A DNA stretch of 64,000 nucleotides from Ruminococcus sp. NK3A76 (GTDB lineage: Bacteria; Bacillota; Clostridia; Oscillospirales; Ruminococcaceae). Below the pieces are notes generated by a model. That model was not told the origin of the DNA. It was given only the letters and a program-made list of their open reading frames with translations, and did not search any database. Position numbers and translations under genes: made by a program. Shown piece by piece: positions 11,943 through 20,808 of this stretch. How positions within the stretch are numbered: position 1 is the stretch's first letter; each line of letters starts with the position of its first letter. The DNA lies in assembly GCF_000686125.1 (NCBI RefSeq), contig NZ_JMMA01000002.1, positions 1,054,001 to 1,118,000 of the forward strand, written 5' to 3'.

Positions 11943-12539
11943 ATGGCTGAAAAGAATACCGCCAATATTGGCTTTGAGAAGCAGATTTGGGATGCTGCCT
12001 GCGTGTTGTGGGGGCATATTCCGGCTGCCGAATACAGAAAAGTTATCGTGGGACTTATCTTCCTGCGTTACATATCAAGTGCTTTTGAGAAGCGTTATAA
12101 CGAGCTTGTGGCTGAGGGTGACGGCTTTGAGGACGAGCCTGACGCATACCTTATGGACAATATCTTCTTCGTGCCTGAAAAGGCACGGTGGTCTGTGGTG
12201 TCTGCTGCCGCCCATACGCCTGAGATTGGCTCGGTCATTGATGATGCTATGAGAGCTATCGAGGAAGAAAACAAGACCTTGAAGAATGTTCTCCCAAAGA
12301 ACTATGCAAGCCCCGATCTCGACAAGCGTGTTCTCGGTGATGTGGTCGATTTGTTCACCAATATGGATATGACCGACACGGAGGACAGCAAGGACTTGCT
12401 CGGTCGCACCTACGAATACTGTATTGCTCAGTTTGCAGCCTATGAGGGCGTTAAGGGCGGTGAGTTCTACACGCCTTCAAGTGTTGTTCGCACACTGGTT
12501 GAGATACTGCGCCCGTTTGAAAACTGCCGTGTTTACGAT
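11943..12539 (+). pseudogene. hsdM: Type I restriction-modification M subunit, truncated
   Basis: Starts at ATG 11943 behind GAGGTG and reads as a normal HsdM N-terminus. The helical domain FEKQIWDAACVLWGHIP and FLRYISSAFEKR is followed by the entry to the methylase domain, GGEFYTPSSVVRTLVEIL. Homology stops at VYD (12539), one step before the expected P-x-x-G-S-G SAM motif, and 18 foreign codons follow to a stop at 12596. About 300 C-terminal residues, including the NPPF catalytic motif, are missing. The protein cannot methylate. The matching hsdR tail is at 16230-17005. Confidence 0.85.
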
Positions 12540-12592
12540 ATAAAAACACCGAGATTGATACAATTTAATTATCCCTCCGCCGATTTTGCCGC

Positions 12593-12626
12593 TTGAGGGG
12601 TAAGTTGGCGTTTGAGGGGTAAGTTG
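12593..12626. repeat. Tandem TTGAGGGGTAAGTTG repeat at the island's left edge
   Basis: Two exact 15-base copies (12593-12607 and 12612-12626) with a 19-base period. Tandem terminal repeats of this sort occur at ends of insertion sequences such as the IS21 family, but no transposase is present. It is probably the stump of an element end. Confidence 0.4.
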
Positions 12627-12772
12627 TGGAAGTCGGTGTGTCCCGGCTGTTTTTATCAGTAGAAATGTTCATACATCGTCGGTATAATAGACGACAAGAA
12701 ATCGGGATTTCTCTTAGAGATATTTGATGGACGAGAATTACCAGAGTATATGACAATGAATAAGGGGAAGAT

Positions 12773-13639
12773 ATGTGGCTGATCATGGCGGCTTTGTCCG
12801 CGCTCTTTGCCGGACTTACGGCGATACTTGCGAAATGCGGGATCAAAAAGACTGATTCAGACGTGGCGACTGCTCTGCGGACGGTCGTTGTACTCCTTTT
12901 TGCCTGGATCATGGTGTTTATCGTTGGCTCTGCCGGAACGATCACGGAAATATCGGCAAAATCTATCCTCTTCTTAATTCTGTCCGGCCTTGCGACAGGA
13001 GCCTCGTGGATCTGCTATTTTAAAGCCCTGTCCGTCGGCGATGTGAACAAGGTCGTTCCCGTCGATAAATCCAGCACGGTTCTGACAGTGCTTCTCGCAA
13101 TCATCCTTTTCAGTGAGACAGAACATCTGGCGGTCAAGCTGATCGGTACTGCGCTTCTTGCGGCAGGCGTGTTTCTGATGATCGAAAAGAAGAAAACTGA
13201 AGCAAAGGACACAAAGCGCACGTGGCTGCCCTACGCAATCGGTTCCGCTGTTTTTGCTACCCTGACCTCTATTCTGGGAAAGATTGGCATAACGGATGTA
13301 GAATCAAATCTCGGGACGGCGATTCGTACAGGTGTTGTTCTTGTTATGGCTTGGCTGATCGTTTTCGTTAAAGGCAAAGGTGCTGAACTGAAAAATACTG
13401 ATTCCAAAGAACTTGTATTCATAGCTCTGTCCGGGATTGCCACAGGCGCATCATGGCTCTGTTACTATTACTCCATACAGAACGGCGTCGTCAGCGTTGT
13501 CGTACCGATCGATAAGCTCAGCATTATCGTTTCCGTCGCTTTTTCCTATTTCGTATTCAAAGAAAAGTTGAGCAGAAAGGCGCTTGCCGGGTTGATTCTG
13601 ATCGTTGTCGGCACTTTGGCGATGGCAATCTGGGCATAG
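12773..13639 (+). CDS. EamA/DMT-family transporter
   Basis: 288 residues with about ten hydrophobic segments arranged as two homologous halves. The repeats are easy to see: SGLATGASWICYFKALSVGDVNKVVPVDK in the first half against SGIATGASWLCYYYSIQNGVVSVVVPIDK in the second, compared piecewise. This inverted duplication defines the drug/metabolite transporter superfamily. The substrate cannot be told. It starts at ATG 12773 behind GGGGAAG. It is the first gene of the nested island, 44 bases before a small unknown gene. Confidence 0.85.
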   Translation: MWLIMAALSALFAGLTAILAKCGIKKTDSDVATALRTVVVLLFAWIMVFIVGSAGTITEISAKSILFLILSGLATGASWICYFKALSVGDVNKVVPVDKSSTVLTVLLAIILFSETEHLAVKLIGTALLAAGVFLMIEKKKTEAKDTKRTWLPYAIGSAVFATLTSILGKIGITDVESNLGTAIRTGVVLVMAWLIVFVKGKGAELKNTDSKELVFIALSGIATGASWLCYYYSIQNGVVSVVVPIDKLSIIVSVAFSYFVFKEKLSRKALAGLILIVVGTLAMAIWA

Positions 13640-13682: not shown

Positions 13683-13868
13683 ATGAAGCAAATCACAAAT
13701 AAGGAATACGAAGTGTGGCAGAAATACAAAGCGGAGAAAGCAAAGGGCCACATCCTTTTGCCGGATACAGTTCGGTTCATCTGCGAGGCAAACGGATATG
13801 ACGCAGAAAAGATCGGTCAGCACTTCCTTGAAATCCTGCCGAATCCTGCCGAAGATCTGTCCGCCTAA
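13683..13868 (+). CDS. Small unknown protein, 61 residues
   Basis: A charged soluble protein (MKQITNKEYEVWQKYKAEKA at its start) with a good ribosome site, GAGGTGA, seven bases upstream. It follows the transporter by 43 bases and ends at the terminator-like repeat at 13881. No motif is recognised. Confidence 0.55.
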   Translation: MKQITNKEYEVWQKYKAEKAKGHILLPDTVRFICEANGYDAEKIGQHFLEILPNPAEDLSA

Positions 13869-13880
13869 GCAGAAATAACA

Positions 13881-13914
13881 AAACGCCTCCGAGCCGATGT
13901 GGTTCAGAGGCGTT
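13881..13914 (+). terminator. Terminator that is also one copy of a 34-bp direct repeat
   Basis: AACGCCTC pairs with GAGGCGTT around a 15-base loop, followed by TTCTCTGTTT. The whole 34-base unit recurs at 16064-16097 with a single difference (C to A). The two copies flank the MarR/radical SAM operon exactly. Confidence 0.75.
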
Positions 13915-13973
13915 TCTCTGTTTCGGTGATATATATTATTCATTTATCTGGAAGAGTGTTCACAGTTTATCCA

Positions 13974-14025
13974 TTGACAAAAACACTCCTATATAGTAGA
14001 ATTATAGAAACTACGATATAGGAGT
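13974..14025 (+). promoter_or_regulatory. Promoter and MarR operator of the radical SAM operon
   Basis: TTGACA (13974-13979), 17-base spacer and TAGAAT (13997-14002). ACTCCTATATAGTAG (13985-13999) and CTACGATATAGGAGT (14011-14025) form a 15-base inverted repeat with one mismatch over the -10 and start region. This is the expected position for autorepression by the first gene product. Confidence 0.8.
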
Positions 14026-14032
14026 ATCTGTG

Positions 14033-14464
14033 ATGAATGGTGGATTTTTAGTAACGAAAATAAAACAGCTTGGGGACAGGGTTTTCGAGCGGATTTTATT
14101 AAAAAAAGGCATCGACGCCTTCAATGGCGCACAGGGACGTATTCTTTATGCGCTATGGCAGGAGGACGGTGTGCCAATCAAAACCGTGTCGGAAAAATGT
14201 GGTCTTGCCATCACATCGCTTACTACCATGCTTGAAAGAATGGAGAAAAGCGGCCTTATCCGCCGTGAACAGGATCAGCAGGATAAGCGAAAAACACTTC
14301 TCTATCTTACTGAAAAAGCACATAAATTAAAAGTTGATTATGACGATGTCTCTGCCGGAATGGGCAGGATCTATTATAAAGGCTTTTCGGAAAACGAGAT
14401 TGTGCAGTTTGAGTCATATCTCGAACGCATTCAAAAAAATCTTGAAGGGTGGCGTGAAGAATGA
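14033..14464 (+). CDS. MarR-family regulator of a radical SAM mobile pair
   Basis: 143 residues from ATG 14033, eight bases behind GGAG; the preceding GTG is less well placed. The winged-helix core reads GAQGRILYALWQEDGVPIKT, SEKCGLAITSLTTMLERMEKSGL and the wing RREQDQQDKRKTLLYLTEKA. Its TGA overlaps the start of the next gene by 4 bases (ATGA), so the three genes are co-translated. A MarR gene ahead of a radical SAM pair is the arrangement NCBI families name 'radical SAM mobile pair system'. The ligand is unknown. Confidence 0.88.
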   Translation: MNGGFLVTKIKQLGDRVFERILLKKGIDAFNGAQGRILYALWQEDGVPIKTVSEKCGLAITSLTTMLERMEKSGLIRREQDQQDKRKTLLYLTEKAHKLKVDYDDVSAGMGRIYYKGFSENEIVQFESYLERIQKNLEGWREE

Positions 14465-15150
14465 GCGTTTGTATAAAGGACCAGATACAGAACATGAATC
14501 TGGTCATCGGCTGTACTGTTGGCTGTCAATACTGCTACGCCCGTAACAACGTGAAACGCTGGCATATGATCGATGATTTTGCCAAACCGGAGTTTTTTCC
14601 GGGGAAGCTCAAAATGATGGAAAAAAAACGTCCGCAGAATTTTCTGCTAACCGGTATGAGCGATCTTGCCGGTTGGCAGGATGAATGGCGGAACGAGGTG
14701 TTTGCGAAGATACGTGAAAACCCACAGCACCAGTTTCTCTTTCTGAGCAAGCGACCCGATTTGTTAAATTTTGATACAGACCTTGATAATGCGTGGTTCG
14801 GAGTGACGGTAACGAGAAAGTCAGAACTATGGAGAATCGATGCTCTTCGGAAGAATATCCGGGCAAAGCATTATCATGTGACATTTGAACCGCTGTTTGA
14901 TGATCCCAGTGAAGTAGACCTTTCCTGCATTGATTGGCTCGTTGTCGGTACCATGACCGGAGCGCAAAGCAAGAAGGTGCGTACCGAGCCGGAATGGGCA
15001 TGGTCACTTACGGATCAGGCACACGAAGCCGGAATTCCCGTTTTTATGAAGGAAGATCTTGAACCTATCATTGGGGATGAAAATATGATTCAGGAGCTGC
15101 CGGAGTCTTTTAATAAGGTATTGGAGGAACAAAGAGCATGGCACAGATAA
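14461..15150 (+). CDS. Radical SAM mobile pair protein A
   Basis: 229 residues. The radical SAM cluster motif CX3CX2C is in GCTVGCQYCYA (Cys18, 22, 25), which would bind a 4Fe-4S cluster and cleave SAM. The compact barrel that follows (FLLTGMSDLAGWQDEW, FLFLSKRPDLL, WFGVTVTR, WLVVGTMTGAQ) resembles the DUF5131/phage Gp37-Gp68 group, close to spore photoproduct lyase-like enzymes. There is no extra iron-sulfur domain. It overlaps the MarR gene by 4 bases and protein B by 13. The substrate is unknown; its tie to a second radical SAM enzyme suggests they act together. Confidence 0.88.
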   Translation: MSVCIKDQIQNMNLVIGCTVGCQYCYARNNVKRWHMIDDFAKPEFFPGKLKMMEKKRPQNFLLTGMSDLAGWQDEWRNEVFAKIRENPQHQFLFLSKRPDLLNFDTDLDNAWFGVTVTRKSELWRIDALRKNIRAKHYHVTFEPLFDDPSEVDLSCIDWLVVGTMTGAQSKKVRTEPEWAWSLTDQAHEAGIPVFMKEDLEPIIGDENMIQELPESFNKVLEEQRAWHR

Positions 15151-16058
15151 ATATGGACGGCGTTCTCATCGGTGAGGTCGAAACAAAAAATATCATGACA
15201 AAATCCAGTCTGCCCGTGGGCGGATATTCTGTGAATCCCTACGTGGGATGTACCCATGCCTGTAAGTACTGCTATGCTTCATTTATGAAACGCTTTACTG
15301 GACATGCTGAAGAATGGGGAACCTTTCTCGATGTTAAGCGTTGGCCTAAAATAAAAAATCCGAAGAAGTATTCCGGTCAGCGAGTGGTAATCGGCTCGGT
15401 CACTGACGGATACAATCCGCAAGAGGAGCGGTTTGGCAATACAAGAAAGCTGTTGGAGCAGCTTATCGGCAGCGGTGCGGATATCCTGATCTGCACGAAG
15501 TCCGATCTGGTAGTGCGTGACATTGATCTGCTGAAAAAGCTGGGACAGGTTACCGTTTCGTGGTCGATAAATACGCTTGATGAGAATTTCAAAAACGAAA
15601 TGGATGCCGCAGTCAGCATTGAACGCAGAATTGCCGCCATGAAAAAGATATACGATGCAGGTATCCGCACAGTCTGTTTCGTATCTCCCGTATTTCCCGG
15701 CATCACAGACTTGGAAGCCATTTTTGAGCGTGTGCATAATCAATGCGATTTGTTCTGGCTTGAGAATCTGAATCTGCGAGGCGGCTTCAAGAAGACAATT
15801 ATGGATTATATTGCCGAAAAGCGTCCTGATCTTTTGCCACTTTATGATGAGATATACAACAAGCATAATCGCAGCTACTTTGAAGCATTGGAGAAAAAAG
15901 CGGAAGAAATGGCAAAGACATATGACTGTCCGTTCGTGGATAATGAAATGCCATATGGCAGGGTTCCGCAGGGGCATCCAGTAATAGTGGATTATTTCTA
16001 CCACGAAGAGATCAGAGGGTCGGATAATACTGGAAAACGAAATAAATTAGAAATATAA
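15138..16058 (+). CDS. Radical SAM mobile pair protein B (SPL-like)
   Basis: 306 residues. CX3CX2C is in VGCTHACKYCYASFMKR (about residues 37-47), then a SAM-barrel resembling spore photoproduct lyase-like Rv2578c proteins (VVIGSVTDGYNPQEE, ILICTKSDLVVRD, VSWSINTLDENF). The end has an aromatic and acidic region with no second cluster. The start at ATG 15138 lies inside gene A behind GGAGG, so synthesis is coupled. It is the last gene before the second 34-bp repeat. DNA-lesion or nucleic-acid repair is a possible role from the fold, but this is inference. Confidence 0.88.
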   Translation: MAQINMDGVLIGEVETKNIMTKSSLPVGGYSVNPYVGCTHACKYCYASFMKRFTGHAEEWGTFLDVKRWPKIKNPKKYSGQRVVIGSVTDGYNPQEERFGNTRKLLEQLIGSGADILICTKSDLVVRDIDLLKKLGQVTVSWSINTLDENFKNEMDAAVSIERRIAAMKKIYDAGIRTVCFVSPVFPGITDLEAIFERVHNQCDLFWLENLNLRGGFKKTIMDYIAEKRPDLLPLYDEIYNKHNRSYFEALEKKAEEMAKTYDCPFVDNEMPYGRVPQGHPVIVDYFYHEEIRGSDNTGKRNKLEI

Positions 16059-16063
16059 CGTAG

Positions 16064-16097
16064 AAACGCATCCGAGCCGATGTGGTTCAGAGGCGTT
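16064..16097 (+). repeat. Second copy of the 34-bp direct repeat
   Basis: Matches 13881-13914 at 33 of 34 positions. The change falls in the left stem arm and weakens the hairpin, and no U-tract follows, so this copy is a poor terminator. Confidence 0.75.
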
Positions 16098-16112
16098 GCT
16101 GCGTCTGTTGGG

Positions 16113-16239
16113 TTATGCTTTGATCTCGGTGCCGTCCTTGAAGGTCACCCGGATGTCGTCCTTGCTGTGAACGGTGATGTAGTCCACCATCGCCAGCCAG
16201 TCTGTTTCCCGGAACTCCGTCACTCTCGCTGTGTTCCTC
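16113..16239 (-). pseudogene. C-terminal remnant of a large serine recombinase
   Basis: Minus-strand codons from about 16239 to the TAA at 16113-16115 read VTEFRETDWLAMVDYITVHS, then KDDIRVTFKDGTEIKA and stop. This ending is characteristic of the Tn4451/TnpX-type large serine recombinases of clostridial transposons. The catalytic Ser domain is gone; the fragment joins directly onto the hsdR tail. It marks an old transposon end. Confidence 0.7.
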
Positions 16240-17005
16240 TATCGCTGAGGAAGATGAACGTGAAGAAGCCGCATTCTTTGAAGCGGTGCGTGTTCTGCTG
16301 ATGCGTATTCTCAATCAGGGCGGCGGCAAAAAGCTCTCGCTCCCTGAGATAAATGCTAAGATCAATGAACTGTTGAAGCAGAGCATCAAGAGCGACGGCG
16401 TTATCAACCTTTTCTCCGACAAGGAACAGGACTTCTCGCTGTTTGATCCGAAATTCTTGGAGGAGATCTCCAAAATGAAGGAAAAGAACCTTGCTGTTGA
16501 GCTTCTGAAACGCCTGATTGCTGAACAGGTGCATATCTACAAGCGGACAAACCTTGTAAAATCGGAGAAATTCAGCGAGATCATGCAAAGTGCTATGAAC
16601 CGCTATCTCAACGGTATGCTGACCAATGAGGAAGTCATTCAGGAAATGCTCAATCTTGCAAAGCAGATCAGAGAAGCCCAAAAAGCAGGTGAAGATCTCG
16701 GTCTGACTGCTGATGAGCTTGCTTTCTACGATGCACTCACCAAACCGCAGGCGATAAAAGACTTCTACGAGAATGAGGAACTTATCGCTATCACAAAGGA
16801 GCTTGCCGATAAGCTTCGCCGTAATCGAACGATCGACTGGCAAAAGCGTGAGAGTGCAAGAGCCAGAATGCGTATGATGATAAAGAAACTTCTGAAAAGT
16901 CATCGCTATCCGCCGGAGGGAATGGACGATGCGGTGGCAACAGTTATGAGCCAGTGCGAATTGTGGGTAGATAATAGCTTTTTTGCAGAAAACAAGCATT
17001 ACTAA
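16230..17005 (+). pseudogene. hsdR: Type I restriction R subunit, C-terminal remnant
   Basis: The open frame enters from the recombinase junction (about 16230) and runs to TAA 17005. The nearest start-like codon, GTG 16286, has no ribosome site. The sequence is the C-terminal helical region of HsdR (EAVRVLLMRILNQGGGKKLS, INLFSDKEQDFSLFDPKFLEE, FYDALTKPQAIKDFYENEEL). The nuclease and helicase motor, roughly 750 residues, are missing. It is therefore a stump of the same locus as the hsdM fragment and probably inactive. Confidence 0.82.
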
Positions 17006-19435: not shown

Positions 19436-20808
19436 GGTACATTCTCAACCCCGACAAGACCGAGGACTTGCTTTACACGGCATCGGTAAATTGCATGACC
19501 GACGCTGAATCCGCTTACTTGCAGATGCGGCTGGTCTATGACCAATTTGCCAAAGACCATTTTAACAGCCCTCCGCCGCTGCAAGGCAAAGGCTCGGTAA
19601 AAGCTATCCACTATATACAGAGTTTCGCTACTGATGACAATGTCACGCCCGAACTCGCCCACAAGATTGCAAAAGCATTTCTCCGCAAGGCTTTCGGTGA
19701 TGATGTGCAGGCGGTCATCGCAACGCACGTTGACAAGGATCATCTTCACAGCCATATCATCATAAATTCCTATTCGCTGTCCGGGAAGAAATATTATGCG
19801 AACCGCAAGTCTTTGAAGAGAATCCGTGAAATATCGGACGGAGTGTGCAAGGCATTTAGCATAGACATTCACCCCAACCTCACAGGCAAGGACAAATCAA
19901 TAAACCATAAAGAATGGGAGCACAAGAAGAACGGCACCTCTTGGAAACAGCAAATTCGTGATGAGATCGACAAGCTGATACCTACTGTCAATTCGCTTGA
20001 CGAACTCTTGCAGATGCTCGAAGAACATGGCTATGAAGTCAAGCGTAGCAAGTATATCTCAATCAGAGCTCCCGGGCAGGAACGCTTTGTAAGAACGAAA
20101 ACGCTGGGCGATGAGTACACCGAGGATAGCTTGAATACCCGCATTCGCTATCGTGAGGTGGGTGCTGGAAATACGCCCGAGCAAACTGAAAACTCAAAGT
20201 TGCAGGCTGCCTATGTTGCTATAATTGGTGACGTTCGCATACTTGCCGCCCAACGAAAGAAAGTCCCTCGCAAGAGAATCGTCACAGCTGCATACTCTGT
20301 TGAAAATGATCTTGATGTGTATAAGTTGTCGGCACAGATTGCGGTAATAAACAAGGATAATATCAAATCCGTTGGTGACCTGCAAGGGAGAATTGCTAAG
20401 CTGCGTGCTGACTATGAAAAACAGAGGAGAGAGATCAATAACTATATTGATGCACACAACAGGCTTGTAAGCCTATGGGAGCAGGCACAGCTTTTTGATG
20501 AATTATCATCTAAGGACAAGCTGTTAGACGCCGAGCAGCTTCAACTCACAATTTGCAGGCAGGCTATGGAACAGAATAACATTCACAGCAAGGCAGACAT
20601 TGACCACCTGCGTAATCAAACCTACAGCCTGCAAACAAAGATCAATGCCCTAAAAGATACGCTTGAAAAGACTCGCCAGCGCTATGACGTGTACTGCGAT
20701 ATTGCCAAAACCTATGGGGAGATTTCAAAGGGTGACTATATCAGCAATCTTGTCGAAGAAGAAAAGCATCGCAAAACACAGACAAACAAAAAGAAACCAC
20801 ACAGATAA
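19378..20808 (+). CDS. mobA: MOBP-type relaxase (MobA/VirD2-like)
   Basis: Drawn from ATC 19378, giving 476 residues. It nicks oriT and pilots the single strand. Motif I, SLRYILNPDKT with the presumed catalytic Tyr at 19438-19440, lies upstream of the first canonical start (TTG 19468), so that start would remove the active site. In phase between the TGA at 19345 and this Tyr there is no ATG, GTG or TTG. The family-like start (M)AIPYCKSIALH falls at ATC 19378, with AGAGGTGG just ahead. Motif III HVDKDHLHSH is near residue 117. The C-terminal half is a long coiled coil. It overlaps mobC by 58 bases. Confidence 0.85.
   Translation: MAIPYCKSIALHATVEKSLRYILNPDKTEDLLYTASVNCMTDAESAYLQMRLVYDQFAKDHFNSPPPLQGKGSVKAIHYIQSFATDDNVTPELAHKIAKAFLRKAFGDDVQAVIATHVDKDHLHSHIIINSYSLSGKKYYANRKSLKRIREISDGVCKAFSIDIHPNLTGKDKSINHKEWEHKKNGTSWKQQIRDEIDKLIPTVNSLDELLQMLEEHGYEVKRSKYISIRAPGQERFVRTKTLGDEYTEDSLNTRIRYREVGAGNTPEQTENSKLQAAYVAIIGDVRILAAQRKKVPRKRIVTAAYSVENDLDVYKLSAQIAVINKDNIKSVGDLQGRIAKLRADYEKQRREINNYIDAHNRLVSLWEQAQLFDELSSKDKLLDAEQLQLTICRQAMEQNNIHSKADIDHLRNQTYSLQTKINALKDTLEKTRQRYDVYCDIAKTYGEISKGDYISNLVEEEKHRKTQTNKKKPHR

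Follow-up and report, generated by a model that had tools for sequence, protein, structure and literature searches.

The locus examined here, in Ruminococcus sp. NK3A76, raises the question of what kind of unit is formed by three tightly packed genes lying between two near-identical repeats, what their products might do together, and how they came to their present place. The genes, which encode a MarR-family regulator and two radical SAM proteins (A and B), form a small part of the 64,000-nucleotide stretch of DNA that was analyzed (the window; Table 1). A sequence-only reading had described a MarR regulator, a DUF5131-like protein A, and an SPL-like protein B as a compact cassette with 4- and 13-base overlaps, and had equated the set with the NCBI radical SAM mobile pair. 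Both statements are borne out, as the end of MarR and the start of A share 4 bases (14461-14464), A and B share 13 (15138-15150), and all three proteins exceed the curated NCBIfam cut-offs for that system. Pfam recognizes DUF5131 in A and a Radical_SAM domain in B. Comparison of A with its counterpart at locus L043 (dN, 0.075; dS, 1.97) was counted as evidence of selection. The open literature gave nothing useful on the radical SAM mobile pair, on DUF5131, or on DUF1848, a family that accompanies some relatives of B.

Table 1. Features of the operon and of its surroundings (coordinates are those of the window)
Feature	Coordinates	Strand	Basis
hsdM 5' part (type I methyltransferase subunit), cut by mobile element	11943..12535	+	Pfam HsdM_N and start of N6_Mtase; junction common to other loci
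Element left end, encodes foreign tail KTPRLIQFNYPSADFAA (to stop) fused to hsdM	12536..12710	+	Same end in L037 (blastn 12536-12710, 91%); L135, L140
EamA transporter, other element cargo	12773..13639	+	Pfam PF00892; L037 has a different gene there
61-aa ORF (begins MKQITNKEYEVW), resident element gene beside slot	13683..13868	+	Same ORF beside slot in L133, L135, L141, L037
Left hairpin repeat copy	13881..13917	+	Repeat alignment, folding, genome search
Promoter-like TTGACA (13974)-N17-TAGAAT (13997)	13974..14002	+	Read directly; consensus match only
Predicted inverted-repeat operator CTCCTATATAGTAG-N11-CTACGATATAGGAG, overlaps promoter	13986..14024	.	Sequence comparison
MarR-family regulator (TIGR04472)	14030..14464	+	276.6 bits, cut-off 240
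Radical SAM protein A (TIGR04471; DUF5131)	14461..15150	+	418.2 bits, cut-off 355; PF07505; CX3CX2C at C18/C22/C25; model pLDDT 92
Radical SAM protein B (TIGR04470; SPL-like)	15138..16058	+	591.7 bits, cut-off 410; CX3CX2C at C38/C42/C45; model pLDDT 90
Right hairpin repeat copy, between convergent B and recombinase genes	16064..16100	+	Repeat alignment, folding, locus comparison
3' remnant of element's serine recombinase	16113..16222	-	3' end shared with the intact recombinases (523 aa) of L133 and L135
hsdR 3' part (type I restriction subunit)	16223..17005	+	Pfam T1RH-like_C, 252 bits; junction also in same-genus G006 (L139)

The operator that had been proposed over the promoter was located as an inverted repeat overlapping the -35/-10 pair. 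It occurs only once in the genome and is kept across clades, including related cassettes with a DNA identity of only about 78%. A putative repressor site in this position fits an inducible response.

Protein A appears to be tied to B more tightly than B is to A. When species genomes, which are unevenly sampled, were scanned with A, 278 relatives were found, and B was adjacent in all of the best 80 of these. Within the family to which the window belongs (248 genomes), A scored above the cut-off at 13 places, every one beside B, whereas 8 of 19 B places had no A. The B gene beside A runs into a contig end in G065 and is broken by a gap of 33 kb in G156; in the latter, about 33 kb of DNA (G156:C1:273064-306647) splits B, and another element thus seems to insert into this gene. 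The 29 B places in 299 Lachnospiraceae comprise about 18 with an intact A, 3 with a damaged A, 7 with none, and 1 at a contig end. At L216, L225, and L228, B is intact and A is internally deleted or a remnant. On plasmids, A stands beside B in 27/27 records. Thus, the proposed functional pairing holds in one direction, as A was never seen without B, but it is asymmetric, as B often occurs without A, and we infer that A depends on B more than the reverse.

The MarR gene is not a constant companion. It is absent in L092-L094 and elsewhere, and the genes upstream at L094 were read by eye as an Rrf2-type regulator and a cupin (several such names, e.g., MerR, cupin, flavin reductase, and Rrf2, were read by eye from translations, with Pfam run on part). 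Bacteroidales plasmids have the gene order AraC, metallo-beta-lactamase (MBL) hydrolase, A, B; L263 and other plasmids of ~98 kb with this arrangement are common to many Bacteroides and Parabacteroides species. The operon has spread as one switchable unit among gut Bacillota, Bacteroidota plasmids, Treponema, and others, and since its DNA is often near-identical across hosts, it probably confers a portable benefit.

As to what that benefit is, the structure of B gives the first lead. Both single-chain AlphaFold models are confident. The solved folds closest to B are, at ranks 1 to 6, all spore photoproduct lyase (Z 16.9 to 17.1; the next about 15), the top match to SplB having Z 17.1 and rmsd 3.6 over 254 residues; SuiB and viperin-like enzymes follow. 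B resembles SplB in the partial barrel of radical SAM enzymes, in the CX3CX2C motif, and in invariant flanking tyrosines (Y44 and Y46). In contrast to SplB, it is accompanied by A and a MarR regulator, it is only 18% identical, and it scores 19.2 bits against TIGR04070, well short of the cut-off of 400. SplB needs a hydrogen-donor cysteine outside CX3CX2C. Among 38 B-family sequences, no cysteine outside the motif is invariant or reaches 90%, so the chemistry of B probably differs from that of spore photoproduct lyase. For A, the fold search gave no clear match (RlmN was top but weak; best E, 0.0019), and a sequence search of the PDB returned no convincing relative of either protein.

The second lead comes from stand-alone B orthologues (53 to 62% identity), which lie a few bases before mutM/fpg in 9 of 12 loci, compared with 0 of the 80 best pair loci. 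These B-fpg genes, drawn from two families (at phylum scale the comparison of B is too sparse to inform), usually follow a MarR gene and often also a gene for DUF1848 (which has a CX3CX2C motif itself) or for a nitroreductase. Just downstream of one more distant B lies a gene whose product has an MGMT DNA-binding domain. The parallel order of MarR, a second CX3CX2C protein, and B hints at a partner for B, a role in which A would replace DUF1848. Conserved chromosomal loci in which MarR, DUF1848 and/or nitroreductase, then B and fpg follow one another (L190-L192, L194, and L241-L245) offer a lead to the function of DUF1848 too. As the fpg neighbors belong to a branch that lacks A and is about 60% identical, the link may not transfer to the pair. 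Together, the fpg neighborhood and the SPL-like fold replace "function unknown" with nucleic acid repair as a hypothesis open to testing.

We therefore favor, tentatively, a ligand-induced pair for nucleic acid repair by base-lesion reversal. MarR would bind the inverted repeat over the promoter and silence the operon, letting go on encountering a ligand or reactive chemical. B would be a SAM-dependent [4Fe-4S] enzyme of SPL-like fold that generates a 5'-deoxyadenosyl radical, the target of which would be a nucleic acid base that is damaged or modified. A, the smaller second radical SAM protein, would be its dedicated partner, produced in step with it through translational coupling. Such an inducible lesion-reversal module could be both useful and movable without other host genes. 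The suggestion that the genes form an inducible repair or modification system is thus plausible, with the fpg neighbors and the fold in its favor, and is best treated as a proposal.

The main rival, which we consider rather unlikely though second in rank, is that the target of the pair is a small molecule sensed by MarR (an antibiotic, nitro compound, quinone, or host metabolite), which would be detoxified or inactivated, the two enzymes acting in sequence or as a complex. Ligand-sensing regulators (MarR, AraC, and Rrf2-like) vary around the pair, as do redox and hydrolase helper genes (flavin reductase, nitroreductase, cupin, and MBL hydrolase), and these changing helpers are also compatible with work on small molecules. 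A chloramphenicol acetyltransferase gene is a neighbor on the Selenomonas plasmid pSRC6, and the wide gut distribution resembles that of a resistance trait. However, the closest fold to B is that of a DNA-lesion enzyme, and the fpg and MGMT-domain neighbors of the B-only branch point the same way. The operon may thus be a shared, switchable kit for damage repair or detoxification.

It is improbable that the pair instead serves phage defense or the modification of RNA or DNA (e.g., of rRNA or of the host genome). A matches the PADLOC candidate defense profiles PDC-M30B (97 bits) and PDC-M41B (96 bits) and a phage family of unknown function, and RlmN, its weak top fold match, could be taken as a hint of modification. 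Yet the PDC matches are generic to DUF5131, no defense island was seen around the operon here, and a MarR switch would be unusual for constant modification.

Base-lesion reversal concerns the products of the operon; how the genes arrived can be read with more assurance from their surroundings. In the window, hsdM is interrupted after its N-terminal part, at 12536, and downstream only the 3' part of hsdR is left. The foreign tail on hsdM is also found on other interrupted genes (at L037, L135, and L140), which identifies it as the left end of a mobile element, and L133 and L135 carry intact recombinases of 523 aa with the 3' end and hairpin of the window type. In Streptococcus, integrative and conjugative elements (ICEs) with serine integrases are known to be inserted in hsdM (PMC4701971). 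The recurrence of the tail, the recombinase 3' end, and these known elements indicate that the window holds a decayed element of that kind. A MobA/VirD2-type relaxase gene on the far side of the hsdR remnant (19468-20808) is possibly part of a second mobile element.

The 34-bp repeats that had been noticed at both borders of the operon were confirmed, with 33/34 positions matching (13881-13914 versus 16064-16097) and 35/37 when extended. Each copy is in addition a strong hairpin (left, -26.3 kcal/mol, z -5.6; right, -23.4 kcal/mol, z -3.8, over the folded stretches). The left copy lies ~115 bp upstream of the MarR start and the right one directly after the 3' end of the serine recombinase gene. 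Allowing up to 3 mismatches, no further copy was found in the 3.56-Mb genome, so that the two are far beyond chance. With up to 2 mismatches, only 6 of 397 genomes of the same family had any match; these counts rule out a multicopy or REP-like family. A search of plasmids with the hairpin repeat gave no match. We conclude that the repeats are the predicted terminator of the serine recombinase of the host element.

In the close clade (the window, L037-L042, L138, and L139), both borders are found at every locus as far as its sequence extends. As a border of the operon, the hairpin is confined to this clade, which rules it out as a universal border. The repeats thus travel with the genes among close relatives, but they are no general determinant of mobility, most relatives being bordered differently. 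That the genes occur elsewhere between unrelated borders that lack these repeats is formally the pattern that had been named as counting against a cassette; yet those other borders are equally sharp, which strengthens the cassette idea.

A site without the operon was found at L141/L201, where a single hairpin is all that stands between the small ORF and the recombinase end. To the left, this site matches the window (88%), L037, and L040; to the right, it shares 96% identity with the filled locus L039 over 3.65 kb. Set against the arrangement hairpin-operon-hairpin, this one-hairpin site indicates that the filled state is a gain of 2,183 bp, and its single repeat copy supports the earlier suggestion that the operon was inserted as a unit. 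The same slot holds other cargo elsewhere (a MerR-like gene in L133 and L135; a two-gene unit in L134). Comparison of the loci shows MarR-A-B to be a compact mobile operon that, on sequence evidence, entered the element's cargo slot at the recombinase terminator hairpin. After entry, the operon was flanked by a hairpin copy at either end; the remainder of the element was lost, which joined the recombinase stub to hsdR. Site-specific recombination and short-homology exchange are candidate routes. There is only a slight chance that the hairpins are unrelated to insertion (two separate terminator placements, or homologous recombination between repeat-bearing elements): terminators are recurrent parts, the operon in other clades lacks such a hairpin, and the repeats are short as a recombination target, but the near-identity of the only two copies in the genome, the single copy at an empty site with both flanks matching, and the presence of left and right copies at every close-clade locus with sequence there argue against it. 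Taken together, a mobile operon in an element slot that carries an inducible module for nucleic acid lesion reversal is the account we prefer, with a probability of about 0.42.

The wider relatives move on other terms. Clade 2, taken as 52 loci (L043-L091 and L095-L097, of which L074, L087, and L088 are nearer the clade of the window), spans about 50 species of several phyla, including Lachnospiraceae, Oscillospiraceae, Erysipelotrichia, Treponema, and others, in which a cassette of ~2.1 kb is mostly 93 to 98% identical in DNA. Similarity ends within tens of bases on each side, and nearly all flanks differ: 27 distinct flanking sequences adjoin the right end, and no fewer than 16 adjoin the left start. 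Most of these loci carry AAMTTCMAGTTTG, a short direct repeat, at the cassette ends, and other gene cassettes share its junctions. The site is enriched (68 matches versus 4 for the reversed pattern in 14 genomes), and an ORF stop codon lies -8 to +5 bases from it at 35 of 66 unique sites, compared with 5 of 66 random points. Judged from these comparisons, the mobility of the pair is far greater than the sequence-only reading could see, and the empty site together with sharp borders in about 50 species opens the route of spread to testing.

In gut Lachnospiraceae and relatives, AAMTTCMAGTTTG sites join compact cassettes, each holding a single gene or a few, into head-to-tail arrays (L043-L091, L143-L162, L264, and L265), for example at L066:7424-15645, L070:8762-9462, and L055:7530-12016. 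On pSRC6 (L264:7257-7952), the chloramphenicol acetyltransferase gene lies between two imperfect sites of the AAMTTCMAGTTTG type and adjoins MarR-A-B; resistance genes may thus use the same route. An integron integrase (IntI) scored above the cut-off in 1 Treponema of 16 genomes, with incomplete or disrupted pieces in a further two Treponema and none in the rest, and the motif did not cluster near IntI in Treponema. Upstream of the site, attC-like arms did not exceed chance in 19 junctions, with weak arms in the long-tailed L044 and L073. Classical integron cassettes were rejected as a description of clade 2, given the absence of IntI from the non-Treponema hosts tested and of attC arms except in those two loci; action of IntI in trans is possible. 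Integrons are very rare in Firmicutes (PMC9024848). The arrays, in hosts tested that have no integron integrase, possibly represent an undescribed cassette system, one that ordinary integron searches would be unlikely to catch. A wider joint reading, unlikely in its entirety, would make the operon a passenger of such a system in gut Bacillota, with cassettes that end at the ORF stop, follow one another head-to-tail at AAMTTCMAGTTTG with neither IntI nor attC, and are moved between phyla by a recombinase acting in trans; it could also drop into the terminator hairpins of serine recombinase elements, and its inducible lesion-reversal pair would be new to biochemistry.

Several known systems can be set beside this locus. 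Clade 2 resembles integron gene cassettes in its head-to-tail placement among other short cassettes and in the short fixed site at which they join, and differs in that the ORF stop codon is often at the site itself. The host element resembles the serine-integrase ICEs of hsdM (PMC4701971) in its place of insertion and in having a serine recombinase at one end, with successive serine recombinases in L133 and L135, whereas the recombinase here is reduced to a stub. By sequence, the nearest named relatives of B are the PA0069 and Rv2578c radical SAM families (NF033668, 130 bits; NF038135, 108 bits), far under their cut-offs of 360 and 430. The closest likeness is to the NCBIfam radical SAM mobile pair (TIGR04470, TIGR04471, and TIGR04472), which agrees in its three genes, their order, overlaps, and scores, although the TIGR04470 model also picks up B proteins without A. 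Those entries give neither a function nor a route of mobility, and to them the present analysis adds the slot in a serine recombinase element, an empty site, and further carriers.
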